Source of the DNA: a bacterium
GTDB taxonomy: Bacteria > Hinthialibacterota > Hinthialibacteria > Hinthialibacterales > Hinthialibacteraceae
Direction: 5' to 3'
Assembly (NCBI GenBank): GCA_016125385.1
Contig: WGLV01000069.1
Coordinates: forward strand, 1 to 64,000
Length of the DNA stretch: 64,000 nt
Numbering within the stretch: position 1 is the stretch's first letter; the number at the start of each line of letters is the position of its first letter. Shown here piece by piece: positions 23,735-32,758 of the stretch. The notes below the pieces were generated by a model, which was not told the origin of the DNA, searched no databases, and worked only from the letters and a program-made list of their open reading frames with translations. Both the position numbers and the translations under genes were made by a program.

Positions 23735-23807
23735 GCTGGCGTAGCTCAGCTGGTAGAGCAGCTGATTTGTAATCAGCCGGTCGGGGGTTCGAGTCCCTTC
23801 GCCAGCT
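23735..23807 (+). tRNA. tRNA-Thr(TGT)
   Basis: The 73-nt cloverleaf has a 7-bp acceptor stem (GCTGGCG/CGCCAGC), a D-arm beginning GTAGCTCAGC, an anticodon stem GCTGA/TCAGC with loop TTTGTAA giving anticodon TGT, and a T-arm with GGTTCGAGTCC. The CCA tail is not encoded. It reads ACA codons and, by wobble, probably ACG. Confidence 0.97.
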
Positions 23808-23932: not shown

Positions 23933-24526
23933 TCACGGATTTTCTCGATCCTCATGCCAGTTAAATGGGTTGGCATCAATGTATCGGCGTATTCGATTTA
24001 ATTCAATTTCATCCCGAATGACATGTTCATAATAATTACGCTGCCATACGGGTGCGCCCATTTTCCCACGCAAAATGTTTATCCTCCTGGTGGAAGACGC
24101 CTTGAATAATCGAACAATAGTTGGAATCGAATTGCAGGTCGATCTTCCAAATCTTTCCGTAGATGGCAATCGGTTCGTCGTAGGGGCACATTGCAATGTG
24201 CCCCTACCCTGTAACGCATTCTCTCTCTCAATCGCCAGTGGCTCATTAGATTCATGAATCAGCAATATCCGATGAAGATGATTTGGCATAATGACGAATG
24301 AATCCAGACTGACATTGCTCCGAATTACTGCCGTCTTATTCCATTCTTCCTGTACAATACGGCCAAGCGCATTCAAAAACATTTCACAATGGTTAATTTC
24401 TCCAAGTGTACATTGCCTTTTATACGTACAAACCGTAATAAAATAAACGCCAGGTTGCGCGTAGTCGAATTCTTGGATCCGAATTGAACGCCTCTTATTC
24501 GTTTTGAATTCATTTGGATTCGGCAT
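23933..24526 (-). CDS. REP-associated tyrosine transposase (Y1/IS200-like)
   Basis: This 197-residue protein is of the TnpA-REP (RAYT, Y1-HUH) class. It shows 'GVYFITVCTYKR' at the N-terminus, the HUH pair in 'MPNHLHRILLI' and the C-terminal tyrosine region 'RNYYEHVIRDEIELNRIRRY'. Such enzymes cut single-stranded REP hairpins. The ATG at 24526 is chosen over an upstream alternative start. A perfect 28-bp palindrome sits within the frame (separate entry) and encodes 'GRGTLQCAPT'. Base composition is lower in GC than the neighbours. Confidence 0.85.
   Translation of the reverse strand: MPNPNEFKTNKRRSIRIQEFDYAQPGVYFITVCTYKRQCTLGEINHCEMFLNALGRIVQEEWNKTAVIRSNVSLDSFVIMPNHLHRILLIHESNEPLAIERENALQGRGTLQCAPTTNRLPSTERFGRSTCNSIPTIVRLFKASSTRRINILRGKMGAPVWQRNYYEHVIRDEIELNRIRRYIDANPFNWHEDRENP
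24180..24207. repeat. 28-bp perfect palindrome inside the RAYT gene
   Basis: The half GTAGGGGCACATTG is followed directly by its exact reverse complement. This is the shape of a REP hairpin, and it is kept in frame within the transposase gene, so the coding sequence tolerates it. No second copy was seen in the window. Confidence 0.8.
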
Positions 24527-24559
24527 GACCCGAATTCTCTCAACAGAGCACATTATTAA

Positions 24560-32441: not shown

Positions 32442-32580
32442 GGGGTATGGAAAAGAAAAAATGGCGGGTTTCAAACCAGCCCCTGCAACTCACCGATTCC
32501 CATGTATCAATCGGTCATGTGCTTCCAGCGTCCCTGATAAATCAAAAATTCGAAACCATTTCTCCATCAGATCGCGCCAG

Positions 32581-32758
32581 CGACCAACGGGAGCGCTTAA
32601 TGCGTATAGCCCAAATACTGGGCCCCGGACACTGTCCGGCGACCAACGGGAGCGCTTAATGCGTAAAGCCCAAAGACTCGGCCCCGGACACTGTCCGGCG
32701 ACCAACGGGAGCGCTATGTTCGCACAACCCCAAAGACGGGCGGCCGACACTGTCGGCC
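32581..32758. repeat. Three tandem 59-bp units with inner palindromes
   Basis: Units begin CGACCAACGGGAGCGCT at 32581, 32640 and 32699, an exact 59-bp period. Each unit ends in a palindrome: CCGGACA-C-TGTCCGG in units 1 and 2, GGCCGACA-C-TGTCGGCC in unit 3. Thus both arms of unit 3 have changed together. The intervening segment forms a second small inverted repeat (GCCCA/TGGGC) in unit 1 and a reduced GCC/GGC form in unit 2. No leader, spacer variety or cas gene is present, so this is not CRISPR. The rest of the 420-bp gap (32442-32580 and 32759-32861) holds no gene; weak frames there are repeat artefacts. Confidence 0.75.

Follow-up and report, generated by a model that had tools for sequence, protein, structure and literature searches.

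REPs are short, high-copy intergenic palindromes located downstream of genes, in many cases no further than 20 bp from the 3′ end, and REPs and BIMEs form mosaics in which palindromy is maintained despite substitutions (PMC3733652, PMC2817692). The pneumococcal BOX is interspersed and built of modules, the middle one repeatable, and is predicted to form stem-loops (PMC3049150); the element analysed here shares these traits. Terminal inverted repeats and target duplications are BOX features (PMC3049150) that set the two apart. Our element is represented by an array at positions 32581–32758 of a 64,000-nucleotide stretch of DNA (the window). This array is probably a single copy of a composite palindromic element that is dispersed, lineage-specific and REP/BIME-like, with a polar placement anchored at stop codons.

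The array consists of three tandem units starting at 32581, 32640 and 32699, with the period of exactly 59 bp given in the original prediction. TRF called it at 32580–32715 (period 59, 96% matches, score 251), the top-scoring of only three TRF arrays in the window. All three units lie on the plus strand: unit 1 (59 bp, 32581–32639) and unit 2 (59 bp, 32640–32698) match the family profile described below with E-values of 1.9e-18 and 2e-16, and the diverged unit 3, which ends the array (32699–32758), matches it with 1.8e-14. They are preceded on the same strand by an AT-rich leader (32500–32580), and near-identical text stands ahead of units in loci L010, L014 and L049; the text common to these copies is ATCAATCGGTTATGTG.TTCCAGCGT...GATAAATCAAAATTCCGAAACCGTTTCTC.ATCAGATCGC..CAG. 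Two PF01699 Na/Ca exchanger genes are located upstream and a GH2 gene downstream, in agreement with the proposed position between antiporters and GH2. Just past the exchanger gene, at 32461–32490, the window also holds a degenerate GGGCGGGTTTCAAACCCGCCC palindrome, which elsewhere (e.g., L021) is T-flanked and resembles a two-way terminator. At gathering score, Rfam returned only tRNA in the window and no match across six element-bearing loci, and the array itself gave weak sub-threshold matches only.

Across the family, a unit is about 59–62 bp long and forms a chain of three small hairpins, A, B and C; units stand alone or follow one another head to tail in tandems, and are preceded by a leader module, of which there are several exchangeable types. 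Hairpin A, AGCGACCAACGGGAGCGCT, is the conserved core. By DNA fold it occupies 32579–32597 in unit 1, with equivalents at about 32639–32656 in unit 2 and about 32698–32715 in unit 3, all on the plus strand. The text ahead of it is mostly ..TCAG, and the variants GCGC-CAACGA-GCGC and GGCC-CAACGA-GGCC retain the stem. Hairpin B, CCCAAAGACTGGG, shows family pairing of 86–95% at two pairs and about 50% at two others; the DNA fold places it at 32609–32623 (plus strand) in unit 1, as GCCCA-AATAC-TGGGC, and finds it weaker in units 2 and 3. Hairpin C has the consensus CNGNC-RCT-GNCNG. On the plus strand of the array, sequence and DNA fold place it at 32625–32639 in unit 1 and 32684–32698 in unit 2, in both cases as CCGGAC-ACT-GTCCGG, and at 32742–32758 in unit 3, where it reads GGCCGAC-ACT-GTCGGCC. 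Both arms of the unit-3 palindrome have changed together, from CCGGAC/GTCCGG to GGCCGAC/GTCGGCC, as had been noticed at the outset; in family columns, pair 53-63 is flipped from G-C to C-G and the base of the stem is extended. Leaders upstream of units include AT-rich types, CCTCCCCCAAACTTTGGGGGAGG and GGGCGGGTTTCAAACCCGCCC, and in some copies a CTCCCACCGAAGATCGGGGGGAG module stands in place of the portion 3′ of hairpin A. In this mosaic make-up the element resembles BIMEs and BOX elements.

Searching the 5.53-Mb, 77-contig genome with a 17-base seed (≤2 mismatches) gave 89 matches, and the reversed pattern gave 2. We fetched 60 stretches around seed matches and at contig starts, 1.13 Mb including the window, and searched them with a profile made from 74 copies. 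At E < 0.01 this profile found 137 units and, in the reversed sequence, none; the 137 form 71 clusters with 1 to 6 members each. Since seed matches number 89 against 2 and profile units 137 against 0, the array and its family are not a product of chance, and the REP-like family supposed to exist beyond the window does so in many other copies. The density of units in the 1.13 Mb is not the genome average, because the stretches were picked around matches; a held-out 0.8 Mb, unused for profile building, contained 11 further units. Placement is mainly intergenic, with 1 of the 137 units overlapping a gene call (calls were made on one draft genome by a codon-usage caller written for this analysis). 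In 68 of the 71 clusters all units lie on a single strand; the only three both-strand clusters are L024:10098–10295, L025:9854–10516 and L047:13468–13792, two of them at contig ends. The C-rich strand carries the units in 46 of the 71 clusters, which hints weakly at a replication-strand bias.

The AspRS of this genome is 74–78% identical to that of MAGs labelled Candidatus Omnitrophota, which may belong to Hinthialibacterota. A DNA search did not find the repeats in 13 relatives sharing the family, order or class of this genome, and a degenerate 26-position pattern had no match in GTDB contigs when the genome itself was excluded. A seed search in 40 relatives gave scattered 2-mismatch matches, none of them accompanied by the remainder of the unit. 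A different dispersed family is present in a sister genus (G001). Its members, about 100 nt long, have covarying outer stems and likewise lie in 3′ regions, though they do not dock on stops. This other element, found at L164:5560–5800, L168:14460–14580, L170:12500–12620 and about 20 other places, has a conserved centre, GCTTCAGTGCGGGCTTTCAGGCCC, and outer stems that vary in sequence and remain paired; no Rfam match was obtained in the loci searched.

Being a high-copy, mainly intergenic palindromic repeat, our family is REP/BIME-like in kind, yet three hallmarks of those systems are missing. No invariant unpaired GTAG/CGTC tag is seen in the 74-copy alignment or in the 114-unit consensus, the tandems run head to tail and not in the alternating orientation of BIMEs, and no cognate RAYT was found. 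The three-hairpin unit of about 59 bp is a further difference. The search for a RAYT bears on the suggestion, made in the original prediction, that a RAYT had mobilised the units; the genome's IS200-like transposases would then move them as single-strand hairpins. The units resemble REPs in being intergenic palindromes close to the 3′ ends of genes (PMC3733652), and the genome has three Y1_Tnp genes, two found by search (C71 and C55) and one in the window. The window gene is RAYT-like (23933–24553, minus strand), has an HLH motif and adjoins a tRNA gene (23735–23807). However, no unit matches the loci of the C71 and C55 genes, and the window gene is without flanking units, the nearest being the array itself, 8 kb off. 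None of the three genes is flanked by two inverted unit copies. The C71 RAYT-like gene (L069, ~76.6 kb) sits in runs of palindromes of its own, GTGGGACCGGCGCCC.CGCCGGTCAT, with which it makes up a separate RAYT–repeat pair in the same genome. With units absent beside all three Y1_Tnp genes, no tag and most clusters on one strand, the suggested mobilisation by RAYT is not supported, and we regard such a REP/REPIN family as distinctly unlikely.

The family also differs from REPs in its placement. On the gene strand the order is stop, hairpin C, hairpin B, hairpin A and leader, the unit being reverse-complemented. In the sampled 1.13 Mb, 33 genes have a unit no more than 20 nt from the stop with hairpin C turned towards it, and none has one the other way round; under the same limit, the held-out 0.8 Mb added three genes in the predicted orientation and none in the other, with a hairpin abutting the stop in 3/3, which brings the total to 36 against 0. 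The commonest gap between stem and stop is zero (exactly 0 in 12 of 28 measured cases), and in several of the cases with a non-zero gap a second, similar palindrome abuts the stop. A flush hairpin was found in 5 of 744 other genes. E. coli K-12 REPs given the same treatment over 300 kb divide 8 against 6; they thus lack the strict polarity seen here, and in place of zero-gap docking in one orientation they have both orientations and spacers mostly of 5–20 nt. For BOX, stop-codon docking is not described in the passages considered from PMC3049150. The polarity at stop codons had no place in the original prediction. No called opposite-strand stop adjoins 54 of the 82 terminal units, the window array being among them: its unit-3 hairpin C has no minus-strand gene stop next to it.

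The stops beside units are TAG in 16 cases, TGA in 9 and TAA in 8, with TAG accounting for 107 of 756 stops overall. We considered and rejected gene truncation by a stop that the element brings along. Of the 54 terminal units lacking a nearby gene stop, only one has a stop as its flush triplet, and therefore the element does not supply the stop; moreover, the ends of RNase Y and SecA match those of their orthologues. The C-terminus of RNase Y is YAR, YAK or YAH in all relatives compared, the same residues as here, and SecA ends within a few residues of its orthologues. Judged by these two protein comparisons, the stops beside units are native. A DNA-level preference for any TRR triplet is likewise disfavoured by the 1/54 count.

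The stop-adjacent genes encode SecA, RNase Y, ParB, a MoaA-like radical SAM protein, a pyridine nucleotide-disulphide oxidoreductase, NUDIX and others, and their unrelated functions led us to reject a regulon. It is conceivable that the unit is a functional 3′-UTR RNA element, in which a stem-loop flush with the stop acts on ribosomes as they terminate or protects the end of the mRNA, with selection fixing its orientation and exact position. The polarity (33:0 plus 3:0) and the zero-gap docking on native stops of unrelated genes are both consistent with this. E. coli REPs at ≤15 nt from a stop likewise place a stable stem-loop just past it, and they are reported to stall ribosomes (PMC12306157). 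Against such an element, no obvious regulon emerges among the genes, and the hairpins do not behave as intrinsic terminators, a T-tailed hairpin within 90 nt being present in just 3 of 32 stop-adjacent genes. Wobbles on the gene strand are also not in excess (15 against 20, see below), and on balance we find a functional 3′-UTR RNA element rather unlikely.

attC sites are structured recombination sites that follow a gene's stop codon in a fixed orientation. Multi-hairpin sites after stops, also in fixed orientation, recall them, and the units could in principle be attC-like integron recombination sites, which are also located just after cassette stop codons. Yet TIGR02249, the integron integrase model, gave weak matches only, none above its curated cut-off, and no attC-type consensus core boxes were seen by eye. 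The units also lie beside core genes scattered over the genome and not in cassette arrays. An attC-like nature is extremely improbable.

Because RNAalifold returned no structure on the MAFFT alignment, covariation was measured directly, on units aligned to a sequence-only profile and reduced to 114 non-redundant ones. Structure-free corrected mutual information over all column pairs ranked 55-61 (0.578) and 53-63 (0.520) at the top, the next pair reaching 0.146, and these two are pairs of the hairpin C stem. The stem pairs of hairpin C are Watson–Crick in 91% of cases against 72% in shuffles, and their covariation is 0.178 against 0.033 (shuffle maximum 0.056); in a control with slid stem partners, 14–37% were paired. 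The covariation in hairpin C is real, and the palindrome varies as had been predicted, through paired substitutions and not random change among the aligned copies. Pairs 55-61 and 53-63 are mostly of the types GC, AT and CG, combined in many ways, and therefore the two pairs changed independently. The loop and the remaining three pairs of the five-pair stem hardly vary. Tree-based counts of paired changes (28 and 38 steps) resembled those of random labels, on a 45-nt tree that holds too little signal.

How such pairing is kept is a separate matter. The original prediction took paired change as the mark of a selected structure; the paired change stands, and the inference of selection is weakened. 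Wobble-type mismatches are about equal on the element strand (20) and the gene strand (15), so there is no sign that the RNA of one strand is selected. Template switching at quasi-palindromes can produce both compensatory changes in one event, and it can create and maintain stem pairs of this kind without selection (PMC8794818). Given template switching and symmetric wobbles, selection on RNA is not supported as the cause of the paired change. A purely mutational covariation, in which template switching matches the arms without selection, would also accord with the non-Watson–Crick cells, which are few and strand-symmetric. However, two of the stem's five pairs vary freely while the polar loop and the remaining three pairs are near-fixed, and the inverted loop (AGT) is found in only 2 of 75 units. 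This alternation of fixed and free pairs, with the rarity of the inverted loop, argues against template switching as a complete account. The placement of the units is left unexplained as well, and we hold a purely mutational origin to be somewhat unlikely.

We favour a dispersed, stop-anchored REP/BIME-like element, whose copies would have spread through a trans-acting process based on DNA hairpins, together with local tandem duplication. Judging by position, 3′ untranslated regions may tolerate the copies or make use of them, and the stop-side hairpin could there serve as a terminal stem-loop of the message. The hairpin C stems would be kept matched at the DNA level, by single-strand hairpin recognition and/or template switching, and not via selection on one RNA strand. 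A further reading, which we estimate to be unlikely, is that the hairpin element is mobile or spreads itself and is targeted on insertion to the precise end of ORFs, where it docks one way on the stop; if true, this would imply a RAYT-free targeting process linked to translation termination or to the 3′ ends of mRNAs.

REP-like repeats are themselves common, and how their position is determined has long been debated. Units of the family described here are placed far more sharply than the examined E. coli REPs, with one orientation and often 0 nt from the stop of unrelated core genes. Such sharp placement makes two hypotheses testable, namely that insertion is targeted to gene ends or that a stop-side hairpin is selected for. 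The family also provides about 100 natural variants of one small hairpin, with two free covarying pairs between three near-fixed ones, and these variants help to tell selection from replication template switching.
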